Origin: Natronobacterium haloterrestre | Lineage (GTDB): Archaea > Halobacteriota > Halobacteria > Halobacteriales > Natrialbaceae | DNA length: 64,000 nt | Assembly (NCBI RefSeq): GCF_900112205.1 | Contig: NZ_FOKW01000008.1 | Coordinates: forward strand, 1 to 64,000 | Reading direction: 5' to 3' | In this document: positions 3,429-40,860 of the stretch, in pieces | Layout of the letters: every line of letters begins with the position of its first letter | How positions within the stretch are numbered: the stretch's first letter is position 1 | The notes under the pieces: model-generated | Told to the model about the DNA's origin: nothing | What the model saw: the letters and a program-made list of their open reading frames with translations, nothing else | Database searches by the model: none | Made by a program: the position numbers and the translations under genes

Positions 3429-3486
3429 CTTCTTTCAGGCACCGAACTCGAGACTCCTCGAGAGCCGACCGGGACCACGGGCCCGG

Positions 3487-6190: not shown

Positions 6191-7153
6191 ATGACCGACG
6201 GCACAATCGAGGACGACGCGGGGAAGCCCGGTGGCGTGGGCGGTGGTGGGATCGAGTTCGCCTCGAGCGCCGACGAACTGTTCGGCGGCATCGCGGACGA
6301 GTCCCTCGGCGATCCGTCGATCGAGGATCGTTCCGGGGGCGGAACGGACGGCGACGGGGGCGATGACGATGCCGACGACGCCGACGACGAGGTCGAAGAC
6401 CGGACCGCCGCATCGGTCTTCGGCGAACTCAAGGATACGGTCGGGGACGACGCCGATACCGACGGGTTGCTGGAGGGCGAGACGCCGGACGATATCATCG
6501 CGAGCGCCGACGAACCGGAACCGGAACCGGAGCCAGCACTGGAGACCGAAGCGGACGACGACATCCTCGCGGACGAAGGGGAACTCGAGGACCTCCTGTT
6601 GACGGGCCGAACCGAGGGCCAGGAGTTCCTCTGGGTCGACACCGCGAGCGAGGGCGACGACGAGACCGACGGCGAGTCGGAGGCGAAACTCGACTGGGAG
6701 GCAAACGTCGAGACGGCGACGGATACGGAAGCCGAACCGACGCCGGTCGAAAGCGACGGCGACGGCGACGGCAACGGCAACGGCAACGGAAGCGCCGACG
6801 GAACCGCCGACGGCGACGAGGGGACGGCAGCGAACGAGCCAGCCTCGAGCGACTCCGATCTCGAGGACACCGCCGAGGAGCGGGCGGAACCGCTCGAGGA
6901 TACCGGAGACGAAACCCCGAGCGCGGAACCGGAGGAGAGTGAGGGAGAGAACGAAAGCGAGAGCCCCGTGACCGACGCAAGCGTCGAGGCTCCTGACGAA
7001 TCCTCCGGGACGAACGGCGGGGGTGAGAGGGAAGATGGGGACCACGCAACTGGCGCAACTGATTCCGACGCCGGCCCTGACCCTGATCCCGATCCCGATT
7101 CAGCCACCCCCGGACTCTTCCGCCGATTGCTATCGAAACTCAACCCGTTCTGA
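6191..7153 (+). CDS. Highly acidic, mostly disordered haloarchaeal protein
   Basis: The 320-residue protein has no signal peptide and is dominated by Asp, Glu, Gly and Ser, with low-complexity runs (EPEPEPEP near 100, DGDGDGNGNGNG near 200, DPDPDPDP near the end). Short hydrophobic islands stand out: SSADELFGGIADESLGD, AASVFGELKDTV, ELEDLLLTGRTEGQEFLWV, and the C-terminal GLFRRLLSKLNPF, an amphipathic basic helix. That layout suggests a scaffold that binds partners or the membrane through short motifs. I do not recognise a named family. The start is ATG 6191, supported by a TATA-like element upstream; the frame continues upstream but without this composition. Confidence 0.7.
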   Translation: MTDGTIEDDAGKPGGVGGGGIEFASSADELFGGIADESLGDPSIEDRSGGGTDGDGGDDDADDADDEVEDRTAASVFGELKDTVGDDADTDGLLEGETPDDIIASADEPEPEPEPALETEADDDILADEGELEDLLLTGRTEGQEFLWVDTASEGDDETDGESEAKLDWEANVETATDTEAEPTPVESDGDGDGNGNGNGSADGTADGDEGTAANEPASSDSDLEDTAEERAEPLEDTGDETPSAEPEESEGENESESPVTDASVEAPDESSGTNGGGEREDGDHATGATDSDAGPDPDPDPDSATPGLFRRLLSKLNPF

Positions 7154-14744: not shown

Positions 14745-15845
14745 TCAGTGGCGAGCGCTCTCCTGTGTCCTTCTTCCTTCCTGCTCCCCGTACTCGAGAT
14801 CGAGGGGATCGTCGATTTCGCCCATTACCGCTTCCAGGGCGTCGGTCGCGGTGAGCAAGCCGACGACCTCCGTTCCGGACTCGTCGTACACCAATGCGAG
14901 TTCCTGGTGGTTCTCCTGAAACCGGTCGACCGCTTCGCTGATGGTCACGTCCTCCCGGATCGTCATCGGCGGGGCGGCGACCGCTTCGAATCCGACCTCG
15001 CCCCGCCGGAGGTCGTCGAGTCGATCGATAACGGCGGGGACGTAGACGATTCCCCGAAAGTCGGCCGGTTCATCGCCGATCAGCGGAAACCGCGTGTGGG
15101 GACTGTGTCCGATCCGATCGAGGTTCTCCCGGAGGGAGACAGCCGTCGAGAGGAAGACGATGTCCTCGCGGTCGGTCATCACGTCGCTGACGGGGATCTC
15201 GCCGACGGTGAAGGCGTTGATGATCTCCTCCTTGCGCTCCCTGGAGAGGCCGCCACGGTCGAGTAACGACCCCAACCGGTGGCGAAGTTCCGCCCGTGAC
15301 TCGACGCGGTCGGTCTCGGTCTCGAGCCACGCTCCGGTCATCTCGATGCCGAAGCGCCGGAGCGTCCACTTCGCGACGCTGTCTCCGATCAGGATGACGG
15401 GATACAGCAGCTTCGCGAACCAGTACAGCGGTGTCGCGCCGTACCGGGCGACGAACTTCGTCTGCTCGACGCCGAGGTACGTCGGCGTCTGTTCGCCGTG
15501 GGTCAGGTGCAGCAGGTTGATGATGACGAACGCGACGAGCCCGCCGGCCCCGATCGACGCGAGAACCGTGTTCTCGAACACCGGCGCGAGCAGCGACTTC
15601 AGCGCCGGCTCGGCGACGATGCCGACGGCGATGCTCGTCGCCGAGATGCCGACCTGACAGCTCGTGAGATAGATCTCGAGGTCCTGGGTCATCTCCCATG
15701 CCCGCCGAAGTCCGGGGGCGTCGAACTCGGACTGGGGGTACTGTCGAACGCGAGTGAGCGCGAACTCGATCGCGACGAAGAACCCGTTCGCCAGGATGAG
15801 CAAGGCCCCCGCGAGCAACCGGACCGACAGTTCTACGGCCTCCAT
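14745..15845 (-). CDS. CNNM (DUF21)/CBS-domain membrane protein, HlyC/CorC type
   Basis: The 366-residue protein has an N-terminal DUF21/CNNM membrane domain with about four helices (LLAGALLILANGFFVAIEFAL; TSCQVGISATSIAVGIVAEPAL; ASIGAGGLVAFVIINLLHL; FAKLLYPVILIGDSVAK) and two CBS motifs after residue 220 (VSDVMTDREDIVFLS; APPMTIREDVTISEAVDRF). The C-terminal CorC transporter-associated domain of longer homologues is absent; the chain ends in a charged tail. CNNM proteins mediate or regulate Mg/Na exchange, with the CBS pair binding nucleotide. It is convergent with the FAH gene. Confidence 0.92.
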   Translation of the reverse strand: MEAVELSVRLLAGALLILANGFFVAIEFALTRVRQYPQSEFDAPGLRRAWEMTQDLEIYLTSCQVGISATSIAVGIVAEPALKSLLAPVFENTVLASIGAGGLVAFVIINLLHLTHGEQTPTYLGVEQTKFVARYGATPLYWFAKLLYPVILIGDSVAKWTLRRFGIEMTGAWLETETDRVESRAELRHRLGSLLDRGGLSRERKEEIINAFTVGEIPVSDVMTDREDIVFLSTAVSLRENLDRIGHSPHTRFPLIGDEPADFRGIVYVPAVIDRLDDLRRGEVGFEAVAAPPMTIREDVTISEAVDRFQENHQELALVYDESGTEVVGLLTATDALEAVMGEIDDPLDLEYGEQEGRRTQESARH

Positions 15846-15992
15846 ACCTGCACTCTAGTAGCTATCGTTATGAATGTCGGCCGGCGGTCGGGTGCCAGAC
15901 TCCCGCTGGCAGGTTGGCTCCGCGACCGGAACCCGGGCCCAAAGCACGCGACGATGCCCGACGGTCGACGCCCATCGAACGACTCGAACGAC

Positions 15993-16280
15993 TCAGTCGA
16001 CGGTGAACAGGTGCCCCTCGGTAGGGACATCGAACAGTCCGACTCGCGCGCCCGCGTCCAGCCACGCGTGCCCGTAGGAAAACGATGCCAGCGCGTTGAC
16101 CGGATCGTCGTTCTCACGGAAATGTCGCCCGTCCTCGAGATAGGACTCGGCCATCTCGTAACACTCCGCGGCGGCGTCGGCCATCGGCGTCCCCTCCGGC
16201 GGGGCGATCGTCGCCTCCGCGAGCGCCTCCGCGAGCAGTTCCCCGTACCGGTCGGTCTTCTCCTCGAGATCGGCGGCCAT
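15993..16280 (-). CDS. DUF357 family protein
   Basis: The 95-residue all-helical protein carries EKTDRYGELLAEALAEA, then AAAECYEMAESYLEDGRHFRENDDPVNALASFSYGHAWLDAGARVGLF. The second part is the DUF357 signature: two helices joined by a turn, ending in a conserved Gly-Trp/His-Asp-like face. The family is archaeal, small and of unknown function. It is transcribed divergently from the reductase fusion gene. Confidence 0.88.
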   Translation of the reverse strand: MAADLEEKTDRYGELLAEALAEATIAPPEGTPMADAAAECYEMAESYLEDGRHFRENDDPVNALASFSYGHAWLDAGARVGLFDVPTEGHLFTVD

Positions 16281-16462
16281 ACCGGATCGTCGGGGCTGAC
16301 GGCCCTAAACGCGTCGACACGATGCCAGCGGACGGGACGACAAACTGGATGACTACCCCTGGACACGCCCTCTCGCCTATCCCGGGCGACCCTCGCTCAC
16401 CCGACGACCCTGCAGGGAACGCAACTCGTATACGCCACGTTTCCGTACACGAAGACAGACAA

Positions 16463-17836
16463 ATGAGCGACCAGCCTCGAGTCGAGATCTATACGAAGGA
16501 GGACTGTCCCTACTGCGAGAAAGCGAAGGACCTCTTCGACAACAAGGGCGTCGAGTACGAGGAGTACAACGTCACTGGCGACGAGGAACTCTTCGAGGAG
16601 ATGGTCGAACGCGCAGATGGCCGCAAGACCGCACCCGAGGTCTTCATCGACGACGAACTGATCGGGGGCTGGGACGACACGAGCGCCCTCGACGAGACGG
16701 GCGAACTCGACGAAAAGCTCGGACTCGTCACCGACGGCGGCGACGAGATCGTCGAACACCGTCCGCTGCTCATCGCCGGCACGGGAATCGCCGGCCTCAC
16801 CGCCGCGATCTACGCCGGCCGTGCGAACAACGACCCGCTGGTCATCGAAGGCGACGAACCCGGCGGCCAGCTCACGCTGACCACCGACGTCGCGAACTAC
16901 CCCGGCTTCCCCGAGGGGATCAGCGGCCCCGAACTCGTGAACAACATGAAAGAACAGGCCCGGAAGTTCGGCGCCGACCTGAAAAACGGCGTCATCGAAT
17001 CGGTCGAGCGTGTCGAACAAAGTTCGACTGCAAACCAGAACGCGTCGCGTTCCGGTGACGACTCGAGCCGACCGTTCCGCGTCGAACTAACGAACGGGGA
17101 CGTCTACACCGCCGACGCCGTGATCGCCGCCTCGGGTGCGAGCGCCCGCACGCTCGGAATCCCCGGCGAAGACGAACTGATGGGCTACGGTCTGTCGACG
17201 TGTGCGACCTGTGACGGCGCGTTCTTCCGCGGCGAAGACATGCTCGTCGTCGGCGGCGGCGACGCCGCGATGGAAGAAGCAACCTTCCTCACGAAGTTCG
17301 CCGATACCGTCTACATCGCCCACCGCCGCGAGGAGTTCCGCGCCGAGGACCACTGGGTCGACCGGGTCCACGAAAAGGTCGAGGACGGCGAGATCGAGAT
17401 CATGAAAAACACCGAACTCGTCGAGGTCCACGGCTCCCAGGAAGAGGGGGTCGACCACGTGACGCTCGTCGAAAACGAGAAGGGTCACCCCACCGACCGC
17501 CTCGACGACCCCGAGACCAACGAGTTCGAGTTCGACGTCGGTGCCGTCTTCCTCGCGATCGGTCACACCCCCAACACCGAGTACCTCGAGGACACCGACG
17601 TGAAGATGGACGACGAAGGGTATCTGAAGACTCAGGGCGGCGAGGGCGGCGGCCAGACCGAAACCGACGTGCCCGGCATCTTCGGCGCCGGCGACGTCGT
17701 CGACTACCACTACCAGCAGGCCGTCACGGCCGCCGGGATGGGGTCGAAGGCAGCGCTCGACGCCGACGAATATCTCGAGGACTTAGAGCGCGCGGAGTCG
17801 GCGGGTGAAGTCGAAGCGGCCGCGGCGGACGACTGA
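16463..17836 (+). CDS. Glutaredoxin-thioredoxin reductase fusion
   Basis: The 457-residue protein joins two redox modules. Residues about 5-82 are a glutaredoxin fold with CPYC (15-18), APEVFIDDELIGGWDD as the cis-Pro/GSH-site region. From about 93 it is a low-molecular-weight thioredoxin reductase: FAD motif GTGIAGLTAAIYAGRA, redox centre CATC near 246-249, NADPH motif VVGGGDAAMEEA, and the terminal GIFGAGDVVDYHYQQAVTAAGMG. The C-terminal domain would reduce the CATC pair via FAD, and the fused Grx may be an internal electron acceptor. ATG 16463 is the start; the frame is open further upstream without conserved sequence. Standalone TrxB is the usual form. Confidence 0.93.
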   Translation: MSDQPRVEIYTKEDCPYCEKAKDLFDNKGVEYEEYNVTGDEELFEEMVERADGRKTAPEVFIDDELIGGWDDTSALDETGELDEKLGLVTDGGDEIVEHRPLLIAGTGIAGLTAAIYAGRANNDPLVIEGDEPGGQLTLTTDVANYPGFPEGISGPELVNNMKEQARKFGADLKNGVIESVERVEQSSTANQNASRSGDDSSRPFRVELTNGDVYTADAVIAASGASARTLGIPGEDELMGYGLSTCATCDGAFFRGEDMLVVGGGDAAMEEATFLTKFADTVYIAHRREEFRAEDHWVDRVHEKVEDGEIEIMKNTELVEVHGSQEEGVDHVTLVENEKGHPTDRLDDPETNEFEFDVGAVFLAIGHTPNTEYLEDTDVKMDDEGYLKTQGGEGGGQTETDVPGIFGAGDVVDYHYQQAVTAAGMGSKAALDADEYLEDLERAESAGEVEAAAADD

Positions 17837-17884
17837 TACGGACGCCCATACAAGATATGCACATCTCTGACTAACCGACCCGAC

Positions 17885-19189
17885 TTACTCCGTCGTACTT
17901 GAGAACCGCCATTCTACGGTGAGGCCGACCGGTTCATCCGAATCACGACGTCGATCCAATCGCTCCCATCGGAGACGGGACCGATCGATCGCAACGCTTG
18001 TTTCCGTCCGAAAGAGTATCCACCCGGATTCGGTCTCGCCCGGGGCCAATTCACCGTCGTCGTACGCCGCAGCGGTTATCGGGCGGACAAATTCGGCGTC
18101 GGCAACCGACGACTCGGCCGGATACACTATCGAAAGATCGTGGCTATTTCCATGCTCGTCGAGCAGTTCGAACGCTTTCGGTGATGGCGGCGTCCGATCG
18201 ACCTGATCCTCGTTCGTGACGGCGCATTCGATCATGAGAAGCTGCCCCCCATCAGCTTCGTAGGTTCGGGTCCCGTCTGCATCGGTCAGTTCCCGCTCGA
18301 CAGTTTCGGGAAGGAGGTAAAACTCGACGCCAACCGAAAGACCGTCCGGACCGACGTAGCGCTCACCCACGTCTCGAATCGGAACATCGTATTCGACCGT
18401 CGTCCGTCGGTCGCCGAGAACGAACGTTGCCCTGTCGACGGGCGTTTCGTTGTCGATCGGCTGGGCCACCGTGACCGAAACGGACTCCGTTTCGCCCGGT
18501 TCGAGTTCGGCCCTGAGCAGCCGTTCCTCTCCCGTCGGCTCTATCACGATCGGCTGCTTGAATTCACCGGCAGTTCCCCCACGGTTCTCGAGTTCGATCT
18601 CGAGGGATACAGACTCGTGTCGTTCGACCGACGATGGTGCGGTGAACGTCTTGGGGCGAATATCCGGTACCGAATCTGCACTAGAGTCGAGTTGGAGATG
18701 CCAGTAGCGTGGACTCGGGTCGCCACGAGCCCAGGAAAACCGAGCCACGTCGGTGTCGATAGGAATCTCGAACGCCACCCACCCCGACGTTCGGATCTCG
18801 GGACGAGCACGATCTATGCCTTCGTATCGAGTTCCCTCGACCGGGTCGGCGTACGCTTCGACCGACCCTCCAGCGCCGTGTATCGGTTCGTACTGATCGT
18901 TCTCGACGCTGAGCCGGAACTCCTCGACTCGAGCCAGGTCCGCGACTCCGTCGCCACGGTTCCGGGACGTGACGTGGAGGAACACGAACATCGACCCGAT
19001 CTGCGATCGGCGGGTCACACCCCGGGCACTTTCGAAGCGGATCGCCAGTTGCAGTTCGTCCACGGTCAGGGCTACGGACTCGAGGTGGTGTGATTCGCCG
19101 AGGCCGATCGCTTCGTCGTCGGTAGAAAGACAGCCGACGACGATACCCATTGCCACGGACCCCGTCGTCAATAGCTGGCGACGGTTCAT
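17885..19189 (-). CDS. Tat-exported lipoprotein with beta-rich domains
   Basis: The 434-residue protein begins MNRRQLLTTGSVAMGIVVGC, a twin-arginine signal ending in a lipobox, so it should be lipid-anchored at Cys20 on the outer face. Two similar beta-rich regions follow: residues about 35-160 and 270-420, each with an extended-strand pattern and phrases such as VFLHVTSRNRGDGVADL and MIECAVTNEDQVDRTPPSPKAF that recall DUF4352-type Ig-like domains, with a CARDB-like segment between (LEIELENRGGTAGEF, LEPGETESVSVTV). No enzyme motif is seen. It lies in the cell-surface part of the window, upstream of the S-layer gene's 3' end. Confidence 0.8.
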   Translation of the reverse strand: MNRRQLLTTGSVAMGIVVGCLSTDDEAIGLGESHHLESVALTVDELQLAIRFESARGVTRRSQIGSMFVFLHVTSRNRGDGVADLARVEEFRLSVENDQYEPIHGAGGSVEAYADPVEGTRYEGIDRARPEIRTSGWVAFEIPIDTDVARFSWARGDPSPRYWHLQLDSSADSVPDIRPKTFTAPSSVERHESVSLEIELENRGGTAGEFKQPIVIEPTGEERLLRAELEPGETESVSVTVAQPIDNETPVDRATFVLGDRRTTVEYDVPIRDVGERYVGPDGLSVGVEFYLLPETVERELTDADGTRTYEADGGQLLMIECAVTNEDQVDRTPPSPKAFELLDEHGNSHDLSIVYPAESSVADAEFVRPITAAAYDDGELAPGETESGWILFRTETSVAIDRSRLRWERLDRRRDSDEPVGLTVEWRFSSTTE

Positions 19190-19372
19190 ATCGATCTCGA
19201 GGAGTGTCACAGTGATGAACGTATCGGCTGTCCTCGAGGCTGGCCCATCTTGCGGAGTGGGGCGTGTGAGTGGCGTCGTGACGGGTCTGCGAGTACGAGC
19301 GCCGTTACGTCCAAAAGAAAAGCGGGATGCGGCGGAAACTGCAGGCCGGCGTGAGCCGGTAGTTAGTCGGCG

Positions 19373-22021
19373 TTAGTTCTGACGGCGCAGCGCGAGCATG
19401 GCGGCGGCGAGCAGCGCGACAACAGCGACAGCGACGCCGAAGCCGGGCGTACCGTCTTCTTCGCCGTTGTCGCCGTTCTCGCCGTTCTCACCGTTTTCGC
19501 CGTTCTCGCCGTTCTCACCGTTCTCACCGTTTTCGCCGTTCTCACCGTTCTCACCGTTCTCACCGTTCTCCTTCTGCTCGGAGACGGTCAGAGTACCGGT
19601 GGCTTCCTCGTCGCCAGCGGAGACGCTCCACTCGATGTCACCAGCTTCCGAGGTGTCGAAGTCGAAGCTCTCGCTCCACTCGTCACCGGGCTCGATAGTG
19701 ACGTTGTCTTCGCTGTAGGTGTTCTCGTCGTCGATGACGACGCCGATGTCGATCGTGTCGGCGGCGCCACCGTCGTTGGCGACGGTCACGTCGAGCGAGG
19801 CGTCTTCACCGACCTGAGTTTTCTCAGGTGCGGAGGTGTCGAGGCTGATGAGCGCTTCCTCAGCGTCGACGAGCGTTGCCTCGAGTGTGGCGGTGTCAGC
19901 GTCGCCAGCTTCGCTGGCTTCGAAGTCAACGGAGGTGTTGGCGTCGTAGTCGCTGAAGTCGAAGGTGGTGCTCCAGACGCGGTCACCGTCTTCGACTTCG
20001 ACTTCAGTGGAGTTGTCCGTCACGAAGTTCCCGGTGGACTTGGCCCAGACGGTGACGTCCGTGCCAGGTGCGACGGTAGTGTCGCCAGTTACTTCGGCGT
20101 CAGCCGCGTTGGGGACTTCTTCGTGCTTGTCGTTGATCGAGATCGTCCGTTCGGTGATTTCGAACTCACCGTCGACCTCGACGGTTTCGTCAGCGTAGGC
20201 GTAGTCGTCGTCGATCTGGAACGTCCAGTCGTAGCCAGCGTCGGCCTCGAAGTCTCCCTCAGTGTCGTAGGGGACTTTGAGGATCAGCTGGTCGCCCTCG
20301 TAGTCGTCGAGGTTGACGAGTTCGAGGTCGATGTCTTCGTCACTGGTGTTCCAGGTCTGGGGATCGACGTTTGCAGGCGAGTCCTGCTCTTCGAGTTCGA
20401 GCGTGACGCCTGCGTCGGCGAGGTCGCTACCGACGGAGCTGTCGTCAAGCTGGTCGATGGAGCCGGTGGCACCGAAGTCGTCGACGGTCAGGAGGAGGTG
20501 GTCGTCCTCAGCGATGGCTTCGGTCTGGGTCACCGTTGCGTCCTCGAACTCTTCGAGGGTGGTGAGGTCTGCGGCTTCGGGCGCCGTGTGAGTCAGGACG
20601 TCACCGGCCGGCGTGGCTTCGGTGAGCGTCAGCAGCGAGGAGTCGTCCTCGTTGTTCATCTCGGGGTCGTCACCAGTCGTGGTTTCGTCCCACTGGTCGC
20701 CGATGGTCAGTTCGTAGTCGCCATCAGCCAGCGGGTTCGAGAAGATCGGTGCGTCGTCCGCAACGACCCACTCACCATCCTCGTAATTAAGGATATCTTC
20801 ACTGGGGATGGTACCGTCTTCGTAGGTATCACTGTCTTCAGTTACGTTGAGGAACTCAACGTTGGCGTCGACCTCGGTCGAGGTGTTGTGTTCGTAGACG
20901 GTGACGACGTTGCTCTCATCCCAGTCATCTGCGTTGGCTGGGGTGTCGTCGTTTTCAGGGTCATCAACTAGTTTGTTGATGATTTCTTCGTCACTGTGGC
21001 CACCAGCAGCAGCCGTGTGGCTGTTGAACTGGACGGTGACTTTGTCACTGTCGATCTCGTCGTCGAGTTCGAGACCGAGTTCGTAGGCGACGTCGTCGTA
21101 TTCACCGATCTGGATCGCGGCATCGTCGGTCTGGGTCAGCTCGACCGTAATGTTGGCGAGGTTGCCGCGTTCTTCGACGACGGAGTCGATCTCACGGTCG
21201 GAGTCAGCAGCTTCGGTCACGTTGACCGTCGCGCTGGACTCAGCCGCCGTGTCCACGACATCGAAGTCGAACTGGTACTCACCAGCGTCGATGTCCGTGA
21301 AGTTCAGTTCGTACGTACCGTCGTTGTAGTTCTCGAGGGTAGCGACGTCATCTTCGTCGTCGACATCAACGTCGTCGTTGTCCTCAGCGTTGAAGATCTG
21401 CTCGAGGTCAGACGCACCGAGGCTGTCGACCTCGTCAGCCGTGACGTCGATCGTGTACGTGCCACGGTTGGAGTCGAGTTCGAGTTCGAAGTCGTCAGTG
21501 TTGTCCGTAACTTCGTCGGACTCGAACTCAGCGTCGAACGACTGTTGGGTGATCTCGAAGGCTGCGTCATCAATGTCACCCTCGGAGGGGCTTGTGAGTT
21601 CCGAGTCGACTTCGCCGTCACTGAAGTCGAGGACATTGCCATCATCGTTCTCGATGACGTATTCGCCATCGAGATCTTCGCTATCGATGGTAGTCCAGTG
21701 GATACCCGTACTGTCGTTTTCAGTCAGCGTAAACTGCGTCTCGAGTGAACCACTGTCGTCATCGTCGAGTTCGCGCAGTTCGTAATCATCGGTATCTGAC
21801 GGGCTAGACTCCGTATCTTCGAAGTACAGAGACTGTCCTTCCCAGAAGGTGCTTCCGGAGTCAAGTTTGTCGTCAGCATCCGAGTCGTCGTAAATGTCTT
21901 GGTTAACAGCCGCTGCCGCTCCGCCCGCGAACGCTGCGGACATGGCGACAACGGAAAGTACCATAATCGCGGCCAGGAACACTGCACGTCCCTTTTCACG
22001 ATATGATGATTCGCTTGTCAT
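19373..22021 (-). CDS. csg: S-layer glycoprotein with PGF-CTERM sorting tail
   Basis: The 882-residue protein has the S-layer leader seen across haloarchaea: REKGRAVFLAAIMVLSVVAMSAAFAGGAAAA, cleaved before VNQDI. The mature part is strongly acidic and beta-rich, with many N-x-S/T sequons for N-glycosylation, and ends with an approximately twelve-unit GEN spacer, the tripartite signal PGF, a hydrophobic helix (VAVAVVALLAAAMLAL) and RRQN. PGF-CTERM proteins are cleaved and lipid-attached by archaeosortase A. In Haloferax and Halobacterium the spacer before this tail is Thr-rich and O-glycosylated; here it is Gly-Glu-Asn. The gene is likely very highly expressed. Confidence 0.93.
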   Translation of the reverse strand: MTSESSYREKGRAVFLAAIMVLSVVAMSAAFAGGAAAAVNQDIYDDSDADDKLDSGSTFWEGQSLYFEDTESSPSDTDDYELRELDDDDSGSLETQFTLTENDSTGIHWTTIDSEDLDGEYVIENDDGNVLDFSDGEVDSELTSPSEGDIDDAAFEITQQSFDAEFESDEVTDNTDDFELELDSNRGTYTIDVTADEVDSLGASDLEQIFNAEDNDDVDVDDEDDVATLENYNDGTYELNFTDIDAGEYQFDFDVVDTAAESSATVNVTEAADSDREIDSVVEERGNLANITVELTQTDDAAIQIGEYDDVAYELGLELDDEIDSDKVTVQFNSHTAAAGGHSDEEIINKLVDDPENDDTPANADDWDESNVVTVYEHNTSTEVDANVEFLNVTEDSDTYEDGTIPSEDILNYEDGEWVVADDAPIFSNPLADGDYELTIGDQWDETTTGDDPEMNNEDDSSLLTLTEATPAGDVLTHTAPEAADLTTLEEFEDATVTQTEAIAEDDHLLLTVDDFGATGSIDQLDDSSVGSDLADAGVTLELEEQDSPANVDPQTWNTSDEDIDLELVNLDDYEGDQLILKVPYDTEGDFEADAGYDWTFQIDDDYAYADETVEVDGEFEITERTISINDKHEEVPNAADAEVTGDTTVAPGTDVTVWAKSTGNFVTDNSTEVEVEDGDRVWSTTFDFSDYDANTSVDFEASEAGDADTATLEATLVDAEEALISLDTSAPEKTQVGEDASLDVTVANDGGAADTIDIGVVIDDENTYSEDNVTIEPGDEWSESFDFDTSEAGDIEWSVSAGDEEATGTLTVSEQKENGENGENGENGENGENGENGENGENGENGENGDNGEEDGTPGFGVAVAVVALLAAAMLALRRQN
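19462..19570 (-). repeat. 9-bp coding repeat, (GEN)n spacer of the S-layer protein
   Basis: About twelve 9-bp units (TTCTCACCG, TTCTCGCCG or TTTTCGCCG on the plus strand) encode Gly-Glu-Asn triplets between the ectodomain and the PGF-CTERM tail. The array closely matches that at 5183-5284 in both unit sequence and length. Confidence 0.9.
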
Positions 22022-22448: not shown

Positions 22449-24044
22449 ATGAGTCGGACTGTTCAAGTACTTATCGGTATAGCAGTAATTGCATGTGTCG
22501 TTCTTGCAGCACCTACAATAGTAAGTGGGCTAGAAAGTGGAGAACCGAATCTAACAATCCATATTTCTGACAATGAAGTGGCGCCAGGTACCGAAGAAAC
22601 AGTCGAATTAGACATACAGAATGATGCGGAACGAAGTAGTGGAACTGGGACAGAAGTTCTCACTGCTCGAGCGGTTACAGCTCAAATTGACGATCCAGGC
22701 CCATTTGAGGCATCAGGAGGGGAAACAGCTCTGGGTCCTATCCGGGATGGAGAAGTAAGATCGTTCGCACACCAAATAAGCGTTCCCTCCGACATTGAGC
22801 CCGGGGAGCATGAAATTTCTATCCGTATTGATTATGCATACACGGACAGGATATCTGATCGATCAGGGACCTCCCAGCGTAAGAGTGTAAGCGAAACGTT
22901 TGACGTCACTATCGTGGTGCCCGAGGAGCCCAGATTCGAAGTGTCTAACATCTCGACTGGCGTTGAACCAGGTGGCTCCGGTGAAGCTCTCCTTGAAATC
23001 GAAAATACCGGTCCCGGGACCTCGAACCAGACACGAACGAGCATCACGTCCGGAAATGGCATCACTGTCGACGGCAGCACGCCCGAAACACCGGCCGAAC
23101 AGATCATCGGCGACCTCGAGCCGAACGAATCGACGACGATGACCGTCGACGTGGCAATCGACGAGAGCATCAGCGGCGGCGAGCGCCCCCTCAAGATCGA
23201 CTTCACCTACGAGGACGAAAACGGCATCGAGCGACAGGCCAACAGCGTCACAGCGTCACTTTCGCCGGCCGCCGAACAGGCGTTCGCCATCGACGACCTC
23301 GAGAGTACTCTCGCGGTCGGCTACGACGGAGAAGTGACGGGGACGCTCACCAATGAGGGGCCACGAACCGTCGATGACGCGGTTCTCGACGTCACTCCCC
23401 AGAGCGAGTCGCTGTTCATCGAGGATACCCGGTACGCCTTGCCCGAACTCGAGCCGGGCGAATCCACGGAATTCCGCTACCCGACGGACGTCAGCGGACA
23501 GGCCGACGCGGGACCGCGCCAGCTCCAATTTACGGTCGAGTACGGCAGCGGTGACCGGACGACGGCCACCGACGGCCCGATTTCGGAACGCGTCGTGATC
23601 GACGACAGGTACGAGGAGTTCTCGATCGAGACGGTCGCGGCCGACGTCCGCCAGGGCGAGACGAGCGAAGTCTTGCTCGAGATCACCAACGAGCGGCCGG
23701 AGACGCTGTCGAACGTGGACGCGAAGCTCTACGCGGACAGCCCCCTGGATGCGCCCAACAGCGACGCGTTCGTGAACGAACTCGAGCCCGGCGAGTCCGC
23801 CGAGATTCGGTTCGAGATCGCGGCCACGGCGGACGCGGCACTCGAGACGCACCCGGTCGAACTCGACTTCGAGTACGACACGGAACGGGGCGACACGGTG
23901 GTCTCGGACGTCTACCAGCACCCGATCGACGTCGGCGAGAGCAACGGCGACGACGGCGGAACCACAGTCGGCTCGATCGTGACGGTGATGGCGCTGCTTA
24001 CGGGTGCGGGGCTCGGAATCGGGCTCTGGTGGCGACGAGCGTGA
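22449..24044 (+). CDS. COG1361-like exporter-associated surface protein with Ig-like repeats
   Basis: The 531-residue protein has an N-terminal signal helix (VQVLIGIAVIACVVLAAPTIVSG), four or five beta-sandwich repeats of about 100 residues marked by phrases such as LEIENTGPGTSNQT, LEPNESTTMTVDV, LEPGESTEFRYP, and LEPGESAEIRFEI, and a C-terminal membrane helix (VGSIVTVMALLTGAGLGIGLWWRRA). Such COG1361 proteins are often encoded just upstream of RND/MMPL exporters, as here (10 nt gap). The first approximately 540 nt are AT-rich with A/T-ending codons, whereas the rest is GC-rich, so the gene looks mosaic. A membrane-bound extracellular accessory to the transporter is the likely role. Confidence 0.82.
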   Translation: MSRTVQVLIGIAVIACVVLAAPTIVSGLESGEPNLTIHISDNEVAPGTEETVELDIQNDAERSSGTGTEVLTARAVTAQIDDPGPFEASGGETALGPIRDGEVRSFAHQISVPSDIEPGEHEISIRIDYAYTDRISDRSGTSQRKSVSETFDVTIVVPEEPRFEVSNISTGVEPGGSGEALLEIENTGPGTSNQTRTSITSGNGITVDGSTPETPAEQIIGDLEPNESTTMTVDVAIDESISGGERPLKIDFTYEDENGIERQANSVTASLSPAAEQAFAIDDLESTLAVGYDGEVTGTLTNEGPRTVDDAVLDVTPQSESLFIEDTRYALPELEPGESTEFRYPTDVSGQADAGPRQLQFTVEYGSGDRTTATDGPISERVVIDDRYEEFSIETVAADVRQGETSEVLLEITNERPETLSNVDAKLYADSPLDAPNSDAFVNELEPGESAEIRFEIAATADAALETHPVELDFEYDTERGDTVVSDVYQHPIDVGESNGDDGGTTVGSIVTVMALLTGAGLGIGLWWRRA

Positions 24045-24054
24045 CTGGTCACCG

Positions 24055-26985
24055 ATGAGTGATTTCGACGCGCCGGGTGACGAAGCGGAGAGCGAGGAGT
24101 CGAACGGCTCGGACGACGTGTGGGCAGCCGTCGAGGGAGATGGAGAGGTCGACGCCGACGGGAACCCGTCTCGAGACGCGAGGAAGACGGAGTCGGAAGC
24201 GGGAGCGGAAGCAGGCTCCTCGAGCAGCGACGTGAAAGGGGCTGGCGAACGGGAAGGGAGTTCCACGACTGGTCCCGGAACGGAAACCACGACCGCGACC
24301 GCGACCGCGACCACGAGCGCGAGCGCGACGAAAGCGATCGGAGCGCTCGTCTCACGGCTCGGCTCGCGATTCGGGAGAGGAACCGACGATGCTGGCGCGA
24401 ACACCGGGCCAGCAGAACGTGACGGGAATCGCGACTTCGGGAGCGGTGGAGCCGCTGGCCTCTCCGATAGTACCTCCAAAGCCGGCTCCGAGTCCAGCCC
24501 CGACGGCGGGAGCAAGGACCCGTTCACTCGTCGCATCAACCCTCTGATCACCGAACGGACCTGGACCGTCGTGCTCGTCTTTCTGCTCGTGACGGCCGTC
24601 TTCCTCGGTGGGGCGGTGGCCGGCGGCGGCGAACAGCAGGCGGGTACCGACCAGTTCACCGAGGATTCGGAGGCGCAGGAGGCGTTCGATGAAATGCAGG
24701 AGAACTTCGACCGCTCCGGTCGGGACGCCGGCGGCACCACCGCCCAGCTGTTCGTCACCGATCGGAACGACGGGAACGTCCTCTCGAAGCCGAACCTGTT
24801 GCGAATGCTCGAGTTCCAGGATCGGGTCGAGAACGAGGACGGTCTGCGGGTCGCCTCGACGACGAGTCCGGCGTCGCTGATTGCGACGCAACTCGATCCG
24901 GAGGCGACGACGGCCGAACGGCAGTACCGGGCGATCGAGCGAGCATCCCCGCGTCAACTCGAGGACGCGATCGCTCGAGCCGACGAGCGGATGGGGATCC
25001 CGGTAAGCACCGACTTCACCCGTGAATCGGCGCGCGCGGACGTCGCACAGGTAGCGATCACCTACGACACGCCGCCGATGTCGGAGACGAGCGATCACGC
25101 CCACCTGCAGTTCGAGACCCAGGAGATCGCCGACGAGATCGAGGGCTTCGATACGGACGACAACGTCGTCATCTTCGGCGATGCCGTGATCGAGGAGGAG
25201 ACCGTCCAGTTGCTGGGGGATACGGCCATCGTCGTCTTCCCGGCGGCGATCGTCCTGATCCTGTTTTTCCTGCTGGTCGCGTACCGCGATCCGGTCGACC
25301 TCGCGCTGGGACTGGCGGCGCTGGTGATGACGATGATCTGGACGTTCGGATTCATGGGGTTCGCGAACATCCCGTTCTCGGACTCCCTGATCACCGTCTT
25401 CCCGCTGTTGCTCGCGGTCGGGATCGACTTCGGGATCCACATCATCAACCGCTACCGGGAAGAGCGGGGTACCGGAAAGTCGATCGGTGACTCGATGGGG
25501 ATCACGACCGACCAGTTGACGACGGCGCTGCTGATCGTCACCCTGACGACGGTGTTCAGCATTATGGCGAACCTGGTCAGCGACATCACGCGGGATTTCG
25601 CCATCGTCGCGTCGGCGGGAATGGTCTTTACGTTCCTCATCTTCAGCGTGTTTCTCCCTGCGGGAAAGGTCGGCTTCGACCGCCTCCGGGAGGGGACGCG
25701 GTTCCCGGAGTTCGGCTCCACCCCGCTCGGTCAGGAGAACTCGTGGATGGGCCGTGTGCTGCCGGTCGGCGTTCACGTCGCCCGGGCGGTCCCCGTGCTC
25801 TTTCTCGTCGCGATGCTCGTGCTCGGTGCGGGTGCCACCGCGTACGGGACCGGCGTCGACACCGAGTTCGATCAGGAGGCGTTCTTCCCCGACGAGGACC
25901 GGATCGAACAGTACCAGTCGTTGCCCGGCCCGCTCCAGCCCAGCGACTACACGTTCATGACGGTGCTGAACTACCTCGAGGAGGACTTCGATCAGAGCAT
26001 CGACGGTTCGGTGACGATATACGTCGACGACAGCGATCTCAGGTCCGACCGCGGACTCAGAGAGGTCGACCGCGCGGTCCGGAACCCGCCCGAGGCGTTC
26101 AAATCCGACGGCCGGGAGGCCGACGCCGACACCATCCTCGACGTCATCGACTCCCAGGCCGCGACGGATCCGGAGTTCGCCGCGACCGTCGAGCGGTACG
26201 ACTCGAGCGGCGACGGGATCCCGGATCGTGACGTCGACGCCGTCTACGACGCGCTGTTCGCCTCCGACGGGGCGGACGAGGCCGCCGATCGGCTGACGAC
26301 CGACCGGAGCGCGACCCGGATCGACGTCCAGATCGACGTCGACGCCGATCAGGACGAGGCCGTCGCCGCCGCCAGAACCGTCGCCGACGGGATGGAACTC
26401 GACGCGACGGCGACGGGGCAACTGGTCATCTTCGAGGCCGTGATCGAGAAGACGACCGAATCGTCGATCAACAGCCTCGTCGTCGCCTTTCTCCTGACGA
26501 TGATCTTCCTCGTGCTTTCCTACTGGTGGCTCGAGGGCCGGGCGATCTACGGCGTCCTGAACCTGGTTCCGGTGTTGCTGGCGGTTGCCCTGCTCGCGGG
26601 CTCGATGCGGCTGTTCGACGTGCCGCTAACGCCGATCAACGCGCCGATCCTCTCGGTCTCGATCGGGCTGGGCGTCGACTACACCGTCCACTTCATGCAC
26701 CGGTTCGTCGACGAGTACGAGAACACGGGCGACGTGCACGAATCGCTGCTCGTGACCGTCCGCGGGACCGGCGGCGCGCTCACCGGGAGCATGCTGACGA
26801 CCGTCACGGGGCTGGGGGTGCTGTACCTCGCGTTGATCCCCCTGATCATGGAGTTCGGCCTCCTGCTCGCGCTCGGCGTGTTCTACGCGTGGCTGACCTC
26901 CATCCTCGTGTTGCCGTCGGTGATCGTCGTCTGGGATCGCCTCGAGAGCGGAGACGGCGTTTCCGTCGGAGTTCCGGGTCGCTGA
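24055..26985 (+). CDS. RND superfamily (MMPL-type) exporter
   Basis: This 976-residue protein begins with about 150 residues of acidic, Ser/Gly-rich cytoplasmic sequence containing a hexanucleotide-coded TATATAT run. Two homologous MMPL halves follow, each with one helix, an extracellular loop domain and about five helices. The paired signatures are VGIDFGIHIINRYREE and LGVDYTVHFMHRFVDE, with GMVFTFLIFSVFLPAG between them. RND pumps of this class use the proton or sodium gradient to move lipids or hydrophobic compounds; the substrate here is unknown. Start ATG 24055 lies 10 nt after the Ig-like partner gene, indicating an operon. Confidence 0.93.
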   Translation: MSDFDAPGDEAESEESNGSDDVWAAVEGDGEVDADGNPSRDARKTESEAGAEAGSSSSDVKGAGEREGSSTTGPGTETTTATATATTSASATKAIGALVSRLGSRFGRGTDDAGANTGPAERDGNRDFGSGGAAGLSDSTSKAGSESSPDGGSKDPFTRRINPLITERTWTVVLVFLLVTAVFLGGAVAGGGEQQAGTDQFTEDSEAQEAFDEMQENFDRSGRDAGGTTAQLFVTDRNDGNVLSKPNLLRMLEFQDRVENEDGLRVASTTSPASLIATQLDPEATTAERQYRAIERASPRQLEDAIARADERMGIPVSTDFTRESARADVAQVAITYDTPPMSETSDHAHLQFETQEIADEIEGFDTDDNVVIFGDAVIEEETVQLLGDTAIVVFPAAIVLILFFLLVAYRDPVDLALGLAALVMTMIWTFGFMGFANIPFSDSLITVFPLLLAVGIDFGIHIINRYREERGTGKSIGDSMGITTDQLTTALLIVTLTTVFSIMANLVSDITRDFAIVASAGMVFTFLIFSVFLPAGKVGFDRLREGTRFPEFGSTPLGQENSWMGRVLPVGVHVARAVPVLFLVAMLVLGAGATAYGTGVDTEFDQEAFFPDEDRIEQYQSLPGPLQPSDYTFMTVLNYLEEDFDQSIDGSVTIYVDDSDLRSDRGLREVDRAVRNPPEAFKSDGREADADTILDVIDSQAATDPEFAATVERYDSSGDGIPDRDVDAVYDALFASDGADEAADRLTTDRSATRIDVQIDVDADQDEAVAAARTVADGMELDATATGQLVIFEAVIEKTTESSINSLVVAFLLTMIFLVLSYWWLEGRAIYGVLNLVPVLLAVALLAGSMRLFDVPLTPINAPILSVSIGLGVDYTVHFMHRFVDEYENTGDVHESLLVTVRGTGGALTGSMLTTVTGLGVLYLALIPLIMEFGLLLALGVFYAWLTSILVLPSVIVVWDRLESGDGVSVGVPGR

Positions 26986-35676: not shown

Positions 35677-35714
35677 TGGTCGGATGCACGAGGTATCCAT
35701 CGGTGGGGGAGAGT

Positions 35715-35735
35715 GGATTTCGTGTGCTTTTGGGG
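35715..35735 (+). repeat. ORB-like element 1
   Basis: GGATTTCGTGTGCTTTTGGGG carries the common core GATTTCGTGTGCTTTT and a 3' G-run, as ORB elements of archaeal origins do. Confidence 0.75.
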
Positions 35736-35962: not shown

Positions 35963-35987
35963 GGGGATTTCGTGTGCTTTTTGCCCC
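35963..35987 (+). repeat. ORB-like element 2
   Basis: The core GATTTCGTGTGCTTTT is exact, preceded by GGG and followed by TGCCCCC. A purine-rich GGGGGAAGGGGAGGGG stretch lies directly upstream (35950-35967). Confidence 0.75.
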
Positions 35988-36082: not shown

Positions 36083-36100
36083 AGGTTTCGTGTGCTTTCG
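36083..36100 (+). repeat. ORB-like element 3
   Basis: AGGTTTCGTGTGCTTTCG shares 13 consecutive bases (TTTCGTGTGCTTT) with the other copies. It is the copy nearest to the orc gene, 125 nt before its ATG. Confidence 0.7.
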
Positions 36101-36193
36101 AACAGGGAATGTACGAATCCCCAGATAGAGCGGGTCTCAGCAGCAATATTACTCTACGGGATTAGCAGACGAAGCCGACGAAAAGAGGTTTTA

Positions 36194-36203
36194 AGTTTAT
36201 GCA
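36194..36203 (+). promoter_or_regulatory. TATA-like box for the orc1/cdc6 gene
   Basis: AGTTTATGCA-type sequence (AAGTTTATGC) lies 22-31 nt before the ATG at 36225. The promoter looks intact although the gene carries a nonsense codon. Confidence 0.5.
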
Positions 36204-36224: not shown

Positions 36225-37421
36225 ATGTCTGGCCCGTTTAGTGATCTTACGGAGACTATTTTTACCGACAAATCGGTCCTCAGCGAGAGCTACCAGCCGG
36301 AAGAGATCCTCGAACGGGACGAAGAGATCGAAGCGTTCAGTCACGCGCTCCAGGACGTGCTGTTCGGCCGGGAGCCCGAGAACATCTTCCTCTATGGAAA
36401 AGCCGGACTCGGGAAAACTGCCGTCACCACGTACATGATGGAGGAGTTGAAGGCCGAAGTCGACGTTCGGGAGGAGGCGGACGACCTGCACGTCCACGAG
36501 ATCAACTGCAACGGCAAGACGCTGTTCATGGTCGTTCGACGGCTCGTCAACGAACTGTTGCCGCCGGACGCGAGTCCGTTCCCCAAGCGCGGACTCGGTA
36601 CCGGGGACGCCTTCGATGAACTCTACAGCCAGCTCGACCGGCTCGGCGGCACCCACCTGATCGTCTTCGACGAGATCGATCACCTGGACGACGTCGATAC
36701 GCTGCTCTACGAACTCCCTCGAGCGCGCTCGAACGGCCACATCACTGATTCGCTGGTCGGAATCATCGGCATCAGCAACAACTACACGTTCCGCCAGTCG
36801 CTGTCGGCGAAGGTCAAGGACACGCTCATGGAGACCGAGATCTCGTTCAGCCCGTACGACGCGGGAGAACTCCGGACGATCCTCCGCGACCGGGCCGATC
36901 GGGCATTCGTCGACGGCGCGTGCGACGACTCCGCGATCGCGAAGGCTGCGGCACTGTCTGCTCAGGACATGGGAAACGCGCGCTAGGCGATCGACCTGTT
37001 ACGCGTCGGGGCCGAAGTCGCCGAGCGCGAGGGCCACGAGGTCGTCGACGACTCGCATATCGAGGACGCACGAACGCTCGTCCAGCGGGGCCGGCTGCGA
37101 AACAAGATCCGCGATCAGACCGAACACGCCCAGTACATCCTCGAGACGATCGCAAAACTCGAGGAACGAGGGGAGGTCCCGGCTCGATCGAAGGAGATCC
37201 AGGAGGGGTACGAGCGGGTCGCGGACGCCTATGGGGCGACCCCGCTGACGACCCTGAAGAGCATTCAGGATCACCTCTCGGATCTACACATGCTCGGCTT
37301 TCTGGTCCGTCACGAGCGGAACAAGGGTCTCAGCGGCGGCCAGTACTACGAGTACGAACTGGACCTCGATCCGGCGATCGTCCTCGAGACGAGGGAGGAG
37401 ATCGTCAAGGCCGCCGACTGA
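36225..37421 (+). pseudogene. orc: Orc1/Cdc6 replication initiator interrupted by an amber codon
   Basis: The full-length frame is 398 codons with one internal stop, TAG at 36984-36986. Before it: the N-terminal initiator motif (ERDEEIEAFSHAL), Walker A GKAGLGKT (58-65), Walker B LIVFDEID, sensor 1 (GISNN) and the sensor-2 GNAR. After it the frame continues intact: AIDLLRVGAEVAEREG, DDSHIEDAR, and a winged helix (PLTTLKSIQDHLSDLHMLGFL, YYEYELDLDP). The position is normally Gln, so a single CAG to TAG change explains it. The truncated 253-residue product would keep the ATPase but lose the DNA-binding domain. ORB-like elements on both sides mark it as the initiator of this origin. Confidence 0.88.
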
Positions 37422-37434
37422 AAGCACACGAAAT
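37421..37434 (-). repeat. ORB-like element 4 (inverted)
   Basis: On the minus strand it reads GATTTCGTGTGCTTT. It begins at the last base of the orc stop codon, inverted relative to the upstream three. Confidence 0.75.
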
Positions 37435-37520
37435 CTACTCTCTTTCTACTCTATTCTGCCTCTCCCTCTCTACTCTACTCTACTCTAATCTGCCTCTCCC
37501 TCTCTTTCTCTCCGCTGGCC
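37434..37520 (+). repeat. Polypyrimidine tract in the origin region
   Basis: Almost every base here is C or T (repeats of CTCTA, TCTACTC and CTCTCCCTCT). No coding sense is visible. It lies between the two inverted ORB-like elements, where strand asymmetry or easy melting could matter. Confidence 0.7.
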
Positions 37521-37646: not shown

Positions 37647-37664
37647 GAAAAGCACACGAAATCC
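37647..37664 (-). repeat. ORB-like element 5 (inverted)
   Basis: On the minus strand it reads GGATTTCGTGTGCTTTTC, an exact match to the core of elements 1 and 2 including the leading GG. Confidence 0.75.
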
Positions 37665-38064
37665 ACTCTCTCACCCCCATCTAGCGGAGTGAATGCCGTA
37701 ACCCAGTCGTATCGCGTTAGTCACGAACTACACGGCACGCTGAGTCCGGAGTTGCCGTGATTCGGGCGGTGTCCAGTATCCGCGACCGAACCGACTCACC
37801 GCTCGAGAGCACCGGATACGTCGCCCATAATAATGGGTTCGCTCCCCTTTGGCACTGGTATACATGTCACTCCCGCGGGCCGTCCGCCGACGCCTGCGCC
37901 GGATCGGGGTCGACGGGAGCCGGCCGAAACCGTGGCCGCTCCGCTGTGACCGACCACAGGGAAGTTCACTCCGCTCGCGATTCACGAACTCGAGTTCCCC
38001 CGCGTTCGGGGTCGTGCCGGCCGGTACGATCGGGGGGGTTCAGTGGGGGGAACGCGGCCTCGAG
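37665..38064. other. Intergenic region before the 13-repeat protein
   Basis: This 400-nt stretch holds no convincing gene. The reading frame of the next gene is open back to 37849 but the extra residues are Arg/Pro/Ser-rich without conserved character. CCCATAATAATGGG (37827-37840) is a 6-bp-arm inverted repeat that includes an AT-rich centre and might be a promoter element. Confidence 0.4.
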
Positions 38065-40860
38065 ATGAGTCCCGGGGCCGCCGTCGCGGTCGGCCTCCTG
38101 TTGTTCGCGGGCGTGGCCGTCGTCGTCGCGGCGCTCACCGGGGGAAGACCCACGAGTGGAAGCGGGGACCCCGACAGCCGAGAGACGAACAGGAAAGATG
38201 CCGAACCCGCGGCCGATGCCGACACTGAAACCCTCCCGTCGTCCGATCACCCGCCGATTCCCGACGAGGGCGCACGGGTCGCGCTCTTCCGCGAGGACGG
38301 TGACTGGATCTGGCGGGTGTTCCACCTCGAGGCGCTCGGCGAGAGTTCGTCGGGAGCCACGACCCAGTCGGCGGCTACTGCACGGATCGAGCGGGTGCAG
38401 GAAGCCGCCGACGGCGCTCGAGTGCGGGAACTGACCGAGGGCGAGGAGGCCTTCCGCGTATATGCGGACGGCGACGGCCGCTGGCAGTGGGACCTGATCC
38501 GGGCCGACGGGCACCGAGTCGGAACGAACGCCACCGAGTACGACGAGCGGAGCGCTGCGACGGAGGCAGTGGCCGGTCTACAGGATCACGGGCCCGATTC
38601 CGATTGCATCGCGGTCGAACGGGCAGCGTTCGCGATCGACGACCATCACGACGGGTGGCACTGGCGGTTAGTCGACGACGAACGCGAGTCACTGGCCGAA
38701 AGCGCCGACGGCTACAGGAGTCCGGAGGAGGCCGAGCGCGCTGCACAGACCTTTGTCGAGGAGAGCGCGGCGGCGCGGTTCCCGGAACTCGAGGCCGAGA
38801 CGGACGAACTCGAGGCAGAGATGGACGGTTCGGGAGCAGCGGTCGGCATCGAACTGTACGAGCCGAGCGACGATGGGACGGACAAAGGCGACGATCGCAG
38901 CGAAGGCGAGGCTGACAGCGAAGGCGATACAGGCGGCAACTGGTCCTGGCGCATCGTCGACGACGTCGACGAAGTGGTCGCCGACGGAACGACTGCGTTC
39001 GACGGACGAAAATCCGCCGAGGACGAGGCGATGGCGGTCCTCGAGTCCCTCGAGGAAGCGGCGGTGACCGTTGCCGGACGGCCGGCATACGAACGATATC
39101 GGACGGACGCGGGCGACCGCTACCGCTGGCGGTGGCGACTCGTCGACGAAACCGACCGGGTCGTCGCTCGCTCGACGGGAGCCGACTCCGAAACGGGAAC
39201 GCGACGGGCGGTCGACCGGTTCGCGGAGGCGGCCCCGGACGCACCGATCCGAGAGATCGACGGGGCGGTCTACGAAGTCCATCCCGCGACCGATGACGGC
39301 GAGACCGACGCCGATCGTGCGGCCGCGGAGGAAGGCTCGAGGGGGCCGTCGGAACACCGCGATTCCGCCCCCGAACCGGAGGGGGAAGCCGTCGCGGACG
39401 GTGCCGGACTCGAGGTGGACGACGCGGACCCGGAGCCATCGACGACGGGCGGCAGACGGTGGCGCTGGCGTCTCGTGGTCGAAGGCCGGGACGTCGTCGC
39501 CGCGAGCCCGCGGGACTACGACGATCCGGAGACGGCGACGGAGACCATCGACCGAATCCGGGCACAGGCCAACGACGCCGAGGTCACCGAGTTCGAAAGC
39601 GCCGCGTTCCGTGTCTACGAGAGCGCGGCCGGTGAGTGGCGCTGGCGGTTGCTCGACGAGCAGGGGGCGGTCCTGGCCGACAGCACCGCGGAACACGACA
39701 CCCGGAACGAGGCAGCCGAGGCGATGCTGACGCTCAAGGAGCAAGCGCCCGACGCCGACGTGATCGAGATCGAAACGGCCGCGTTCGAACTGTTCGCCTC
39801 GGACGGGGAGTGGCGCTGGCGGCTGATCGACAGCGCCGGACGCTGCGTCGCCGAGGCCCCGTCCACCTATCCCGACCGTGCGGGCGCCCGCGAAGCGCTG
39901 GATCGTGTGCGGGACCATCTGGAGGCCGACGCCCGAACGATGGACGGCCCGGTCTTCGAACCGTACGCGGACGGCGACTGGTACTGGCGGTTCGTCCTGC
40001 CGACGGGCCAACCGCTCGCCGTCGCCGCCTCCGGGCGTTCGACCCGGGACGACCTCCTCGAGGCCCTCTCGGACCTGCGGGAGACGGCGGCCACCGCCCA
40101 GAGCTACTCGACCGGAGCGACGACGGTCCAACTCTCCTGCGGCGACGGGTGGCGCTGGCGGGTTCTGGATCGCGACCGCGACACTGTCGTCGAATCGGCC
40201 GGCGTCTACGCCGACCGCGAGGCGGCGCGGCGGGCCGTCGACGTCCTCGAGCGCACTGGGACGGACGCGCCGGTGTTCACGGCCGCGGAGCCCGTGATCT
40301 CGCTCGAGCGGATCGACGGGACCGACAGTAGCGCCGATACTGATGGCGAAAGCGAGGGAGAAGACCGCCGACGCTGGCGGTGGCGACTCCTCGACGCCGA
40401 CCGAAACGAGGTCGCGGTCGGTACGGAGTCACTCGCTCGAGCCACCGTCCCGGATGCGATCGAGGAAGTTCGCAGGCTCGCGCCGCAGGCCGACCGGATC
40501 GACGTCTCCGGCACGTCGTTCGATCTCGTTGCAGACGAGGGGCGCTGGCGGTGGCGATTCCTCGACGAGGGGAACACCCCGATCGCGACCGGGACCGTCC
40601 GCTACGAGTCGAAGGGCGCGGCCCGGGCGGCGATCGACGAGGTCCGTGGTTCCCTCGAGAGTGCGAACGTGTTCGAACTCGAGGGTGGAACGTTCGAACT
40701 CTACGAGGGAGGCGGCGAGTGGGGGTGGCGGCTGGTCGACGAGTGCGGGGAGACGCTGCTCGAAAGCACGGAGACCTACGAGACGCGTGCGGCCGCACAC
40801 GAGGCGCTGGCGGCAGTACGGGCACACACGCCCCAGGGCGAGGTAACGGTCGTCGAGTGA
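38065..40860 (+). CDS. Membrane-anchored protein with 13 DUF1508-like repeats
   Basis: The 931-residue protein has one N-terminal helix (AVAVGLLLFAGVAVVVAALTGG, about 5-26), an acidic linker, then 13 units of about 60-75 residues. Each unit holds a W-x-W core (DWIWRVF, RWQWDLI, GWHWRLV, NWSWRIV, RWRWRLV twice, EWRWRLL, EWRWRLI, DWYWRFV, GWRWRVL, RWRWRLL, RWRWRFL, EWGWRLV), followed by a turn, a G/S-x-x-Y strand and an A-rich helix. This is the DUF1508 (YegP/HVO_2922-like) beta-alpha unit, normally present in one or two copies. Acidic inserts separate some units. The start is ATG 38065, after a GGGGGG-rich leader. Its role is unknown; an extended repeat rod or multivalent binder is my inference. 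Confidence 0.85.
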   Translation: MSPGAAVAVGLLLFAGVAVVVAALTGGRPTSGSGDPDSRETNRKDAEPAADADTETLPSSDHPPIPDEGARVALFREDGDWIWRVFHLEALGESSSGATTQSAATARIERVQEAADGARVRELTEGEEAFRVYADGDGRWQWDLIRADGHRVGTNATEYDERSAATEAVAGLQDHGPDSDCIAVERAAFAIDDHHDGWHWRLVDDERESLAESADGYRSPEEAERAAQTFVEESAAARFPELEAETDELEAEMDGSGAAVGIELYEPSDDGTDKGDDRSEGEADSEGDTGGNWSWRIVDDVDEVVADGTTAFDGRKSAEDEAMAVLESLEEAAVTVAGRPAYERYRTDAGDRYRWRWRLVDETDRVVARSTGADSETGTRRAVDRFAEAAPDAPIREIDGAVYEVHPATDDGETDADRAAAEEGSRGPSEHRDSAPEPEGEAVADGAGLEVDDADPEPSTTGGRRWRWRLVVEGRDVVAASPRDYDDPETATETIDRIRAQANDAEVTEFESAAFRVYESAAGEWRWRLLDEQGAVLADSTAEHDTRNEAAEAMLTLKEQAPDADVIEIETAAFELFASDGEWRWRLIDSAGRCVAEAPSTYPDRAGAREALDRVRDHLEADARTMDGPVFEPYADGDWYWRFVLPTGQPLAVAASGRSTRDDLLEALSDLRETAATAQSYSTGATTVQLSCGDGWRWRVLDRDRDTVVESAGVYADREAARRAVDVLERTGTDAPVFTAAEPVISLERIDGTDSSADTDGESEGEDRRRWRWRLLDADRNEVAVGTESLARATVPDAIEEVRRLAPQADRIDVSGTSFDLVADEGRWRWRFLDEGNTPIATGTVRYESKGAARAAIDEVRGSLESANVFELEGGTFELYEGGGEWGWRLVDECGETLLESTETYETRAAAHEALAAVRAHTPQGEVTVVE

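Follow-up and report, generated by a model that had tools for sequence, protein, structure and literature searches.

Haloarchaea are a main model for studying the gain and loss of chromosomal replication origins, which is still an open question. The origins of Haloarcula hispanica each require their own cdc6 gene, and at oriC2-cdc6E a downstream cluster of ORBs restrains initiation (PMC3936714). More generally, the sequence type of an ORB is linked to the family of the Orc protein (PMC3528665). The loss or disruption of haloarchaeal orc/origin pairs has already been documented (PMC4441112). A published survey counted only Orc proteins longer than 300 aa (PMC3528665), so that decaying initiators like the one found in Natronobacterium haloterrestre would be missed. 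Here, we have examined an orc1/cdc6 locus of this species for which the original prediction was that the initiator had recently been silenced by one amber codon while the elements of its origin were kept. The analysis supported this claim.

The locus lies in a window of 64,000 nucleotides (the whole stretch of DNA analysed), which is the start of contig C8 in the 4.5-Mb, 31-contig draft genome of N. haloterrestre (G000). As predicted, the reading frame is intact, from an ATG start to a TGA end, except for exactly one internal stop, TAG, in a frame of 398 codons (Table 1). When codon 254 was read as Gln, the 398-aa product matched TIGR02928 (orc1/cdc6 family; 1.7e-119) and the Pfam AAA domain, plus Cdc6_lid and Cdc6_C above the cut-off, and its best solved-structure matches were the archaeal Orc1/Cdc6 proteins 2v1u and 2qby. 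The gene contains the AAA+ ATPase domain with its sensor-2 GxAR motif. Alignment with the GDAR motif of the Sulfolobus and Aeropyrum Orc1 structures located the Arg of GNAR as the residue just before the stop, which bears out the predicted position of the lesion. The winged helix is also encoded (Cdc6_C, 3.2e-20), in the same frame and downstream of the TAG, and after the stop there is no in-frame ATG, GTG or TTG until an ATG 43 codons before the end. Judged from its sequence, the gene is therefore a member of Orc1/Cdc6 by descent, not as an expressed protein.

Table 1. Features of the orc1/cdc6 locus (window positions) and the remnant of the gene in Halobiforma lacisalsi
Feature	Position	Strand	Remarks
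ORB-like repeat 1 (ORB1), GAGAGTGGATTTCGTGTGCTTT	35709..35730	+	core at 35717; H. lacisalsi synteny ends at its last base
ORB-like repeat 2 (ORB2)	35967..35980	+	core, 0 mismatches
ORB-like repeat 3 (ORB3)	36085..36098	+	core, 1 mismatch
Promoter stretch GAAAAGAGGTTTTAAGTT with TATA-like TTTTAAGTT	36180..36199	+	conserved with H. nitratireducens
Nonsense-mutated orc1/cdc6 family initiator gene	36225..37421	+	398 codons if codon 254 is sense
Still-translatable 253-aa AAA+ fragment	36225..36983	+	lid domain cut at profile position 37/68
Premature TAG, codon 254	36984..36986	+	right after sensor-2 GNAR; Gln in 19/19 aligned orthologues
Orphaned lid remainder and complete Cdc6_C winged-helix domain	36987..37418	+	no in-frame ATG/GTG/TTG before 37290
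ORB-like repeat 4 (ORB4), inverted	37421..37442	-	overlaps last base of natural stop codon
ORB-like repeat 5 (ORB5), inverted	37649..37670	-	H. lacisalsi synteny resumes at its first base
H. lacisalsi orc remnant	L116 (G001:C1:2190000-2204000), 6306-6723		between a one-mismatch ORB and a perfect ORB

All 19 aligned orthologues carry CAG or CAA at the position of codon 254, and the nearest relatives carry CAG. The simplest account is thus one C-to-T transition on the N. haloterrestre lineage, as had been proposed. The accompanying statement that the family normally has Gln at this position holds for the haloarchaeal subfamily and not for the family as a whole, since crenarchaeal Orc1 proteins have Arg there. 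No other copy with at least 71% identity covering the protein contains a stop. The disruption is therefore absent from orthologues, as in a pseudogene, and no relaxed selection was seen after it, a result that a very young lesion, an error or a rescue would each explain.

We found five copies of a 14-base core, ATTTCGTGTGCTTT, with at most one mismatch at the locus, three of them upstream on the forward strand and two downstream on the reverse strand. The core sits inside a longer unit, GAGAGT(N)(N)ATTTCGTGTGCTTTC. Allowing up to two mismatches, the window contains six matches versus 0.09 expected by chance. The rest of the genome has no further match with zero or one mismatch and, at its other orc loci, none within two mismatches, the two-mismatch matches lying elsewhere. 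The same layout, direct upstream and inverted downstream, flanks the orthologous orc gene in Natrinema, Halopenitus, Natronococcus, some Halorubrum, Halobellus and others; many more distant members of the subfamily are without the core. This distribution around orthologues is the pattern expected of ORBs. The repeats adjacent to the gene are family-specific and of the origin-associated type, and they recur in the intergenic DNA next to the orc gene, as in haloarchaeal origins. Four of the five are perfect and the promoter is common to H. nitratireducens, in agreement with the prediction that promoter box and flanking repeats persist. An uncalibrated analysis of cumulative GC/AT skew, which covered contig C8 and, in H. 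lacisalsi, 400 kb of chromosome, revealed no turning point at the locus, no rRNA gene, as described beside some secondary origins, was present in the window, and a literature search on the ORB sequence returned nothing relevant among the matches listed. Between ORB4 and ORB5, at 37445-37505 of the window, there is a near-perfect 27-bp direct repeat with a pyrimidine-rich strand (TCTACTCTATTCTGCCTCTCCCTCTCT).

N. haloterrestre is a close relative of Halobiforma nitratireducens and Halobiforma lacisalsi. The nearest full-length relative of the gene, 96% identical, belongs to H. nitratireducens JCM 10879 (G004, contig C12, NZ_AOMA01000012.1), where it lies between the same neighbours as in the window. 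In genomes of two other genera (G022 and G293), the gene is flanked by a transporter gene (window 24004-26985) on one side and by the DUF1508 gene on the other. The flanking synteny of the locus is found in three genera. Neighbours shared across genera indicate that the orc gene is an old resident of the locus, and this synteny within Natrialbaceae, together with the repeat layout at intact orthologues in many genera, indicates that the orc/ORB pair has been long maintained. A plasmid origin of the module was considered and rejected, the best plasmid-borne relatives being only ~60% identical. The window also contains, at 37849-40860, a long ORF (~1000 codons) in which DUF1508 domains are repeated; sequence related to it occurs at G000:C8:207766-209912.

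In H. lacisalsi AJ5 (G001), the flanks share 93-96% identity with the window, but the body of the orc gene is missing, the synteny stopping and restarting at the outer ORBs. What is left is a 339-bp C-terminal piece corresponding to window 37080-37418, with a 46-bp frameshifting insertion; contig C2 of the same genome (NZ_CP019286.1) carries an orc match. The gene is thus intact in H. nitratireducens and mostly deleted in H. lacisalsi. The coincidence of the breakpoints with ORB1 and ORB5 suggested an element-like excision between the outer ORBs. We claim no mobile element, because recombination between ORB4 and ORB5, which are direct repeats, would explain the right breakpoint, and a deletion into the gene would explain the left. 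Natronococcus jeotgali (G006:C128, L118) has, at 4970-5920, a second, N-terminally truncated orc copy with ORBs on both sides, in which a TATA-like box is joined straight to the codon equivalent to window 37080. The right breakpoint of this copy is the same as in H. lacisalsi, and an intact copy is present elsewhere in that genome.

The age of the lesion was then estimated from substitutions. Relative to H. nitratireducens, changes in the gene are mostly synonymous (dN 0.018, dS 0.75), nearly all of them falling on third codon positions, and alike before and after the stop. The neutral yardstick was the third-position divergence of five flanking genes from their H. lacisalsi counterparts (7.6%). 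At this rate, one branch would be expected to show 8.5 changes at positions 1 and 2 of the last 113 codons if these were neutral. The N. haloterrestre branch has accumulated 0-1 such changes since the split from H. lacisalsi (P = 0.0002-0.002). In the H. lacisalsi remnant 8-9 changes occurred, including the radical replacements Arg-Trp, Arg-Cys, Ser-Pro, Leu-Pro and Leu-Arg. By these counts, the remnant is decaying at the neutral rate and the C-terminal half of the gene in the window is not, although a direct Fisher comparison of the two branches, with their small counts, was not significant (p = 0.21-0.58). With 95% confidence, at most 35-56% of the N. haloterrestre branch was unconstrained, so the stop should be younger than that. 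The predicted recency of the loss is borne out by this lack of neutral decay, a pattern that a sequencing error would give as well. The nonsense change probably arose separately from the deletion in H. lacisalsi.

Besides the broken gene, the genome contains six Cdc6_C-bearing ORFs without stops, one of which is a 591-aa Orc; the one exact string of the classical oriC1 ORB core that was tried had no match near the latter. No full-length copy of the subfamily was found in G001 to G003, which belong to the same genus as N. haloterrestre, indicating that the subfamily is dispensable. The six stop-free ORFs and the fact that H. lacisalsi lives without the gene also indicate that its loss is tolerable. 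Another contig of the genome, C17, carries an orc gene at 10688 and, at 15100-19700 (L223), twelve tRNA genes in 4.6 kb, an array that may mark a plasmid or a provirus.

Taken together, these results make it likely that the gene is a young null allele of an origin-specific Orc1/Cdc6, that its origin is an orphan and silent, that other Orcs replicate the chromosome and that the loss in the sister species was a separate event. A C-to-T change on the N. haloterrestre lineage would have turned codon 254 from CAG into TAG. The product would end inside the ATPase lid, without the winged helix, and should neither bind its ORBs nor load MCM; loss of protein function is the natural inference from these two defects. 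The five ORBs and the promoter would be left as an orphan origin that is probably silent, the remaining Orc/origin pairs would replicate the chromosome, and H. lacisalsi would have lost the same locus separately, by deletion. Silence of the origin is expected because H. hispanica origins depend on their own cdc6 and no other orc locus here has this ORB. Three outcomes had been foreseen for the locus, of which the silent origin is favoured, while firing in trans and a functional 253-residue fragment are disfavoured.

The increase in doubt along the alternatives starts with a sequencing or assembly error, which would leave the gene intact. The base is known from one draft assembly, and the strong purifying selection on the rest of the gene, the near-perfect ORBs, the conserved promoter and the undecayed half after the stop all look like those of a functional gene. 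Against this, six flanking genes align to H. lacisalsi without any gap, so that the assembly looks clean here, and the loss of the gene in this sister species shows that it is tolerated in the clade. Moreover, a single wrong base in a draft of such quality should be rare, and we consider an error unlikely. That the lesion is real and the origin still active, its ORBs being bound and fired in trans by another Orc, seems somewhat less probable still. The genome encodes at least six other Orc proteins and the ORBs show no sign of decay, but a very young loss accounts for intact ORBs equally well. Furthermore, none of the other orc loci has this ORB within two mismatches, the type of an ORB goes with the family of the Orc (PMC3528665), and deletion of cdc6E, the initiator gene belonging to oriC2, abolished the oriC2 peak in Haloarcula hispanica (PMC3936714).

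The two remaining alternatives give the gene a product with a function. A 253-residue AAA+ fragment could be made and play a dominant or regulatory role, for example by titrating other Orcs or MCM, as the intact promoter and Walker motifs and the sensor-2 Arg as last residue would allow. This is very improbable: the stop falls inside the lid, at profile position 37/68, instead of at a domain boundary, it removes the whole winged helix, and no relative with a comparable C-terminal truncation was found, the broken copies inspected mostly being without the N-terminal part in a search that favours such copies. Reading through of the TAG, or its decoding by a suppressor tRNA, would yield a full-length Orc and fits the lack of decay after the stop. 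Among 53 tRNA genes, all those typed by ARAGORN have a normal sense anticodon and none has CUA, two long, probably intron-bearing candidates being untyped, and we regard this alternative as the most improbable of all.

For the wider subfamily, 392 genomes of the order were searched with the C-terminal domain, counting matches with at least 63% identity. In this approximate count, made by hand from tables with a search that favours copies retaining the C-terminus, 13 of 66 sampled copies (~20%) were broken. Two of the 13 carried a nonsense codon in an otherwise near-full-length frame (N. haloterrestre and one of the two copies in G339), and the others were truncated, frameshifted or fragmentary. 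Seven genomes had only broken copies (G000, G001, G163, G213, G229, G245 and G266). In G213 (L152, C8:1397500-1408500, 3340-5990), the space between upstream ORBs of the N. haloterrestre type and a C-terminal remnant of this subfamily's orc is occupied by another orc gene with 43% identity, and downstream ORBs follow the remnant. It looks as though a second initiator had taken the place of the first within one origin. A locus of G245 (L112) looks similar in arrangement. The 13 broken copies, the different lesions of two sister species and, in some genomes, a different orc gene between old ORBs and remnant lead us to suggest, tentatively and with considerable doubt, that the Orc/ORB module is being lost convergently across haloarchaea. 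If true, the pattern would speak for selection acting against the module, or for other initiators having taken it over repeatedly, and not for chance decay.

The N. haloterrestre locus resembles in layout oriC2-cdc6E, a secondary chromosomal origin of Haloarcula hispanica, with ORBs upstream of the cdc6 gene and further ones downstream, which there form oriC2D (PMC3936714). In contrast, oriC2-cdc6E is active and has an intact initiator, and oriC2D has 11 ORBs versus the two downstream of the N. haloterrestre gene (PMC3936714). The disrupted oriC3-cdc6D of the same species is likewise a chromosomal orc/origin pair that one strain has lost and its relatives retain; a transposase disrupted it (PMC4441112), whereas at the N. 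haloterrestre locus one base creates the stop and the cis elements are all still intact. As for oriC4-cdc6H of Haloferax mediterranei and oriP2-orc13 of Haloferax volcanii, the origin is expected not to fire in the wild type (PMC4595724). However, these dormant origins have an intact initiator and can be activated (PMC4595724), while no intact initiator gene stands beside the N. haloterrestre origin, whose activation should require an initiator able to recognise its ORBs; hence ‘orphan’ describes the locus better than ‘dormant’. What N. haloterrestre adds to these systems is an unusually early stage of decay and a series of three states at one syntenic origin locus, intact in H. nitratireducens, to all appearances freshly dead in N. 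haloterrestre and deleted in H. lacisalsi, so that these close relatives offer a natural comparison of what the loss of one initiator does to replication.
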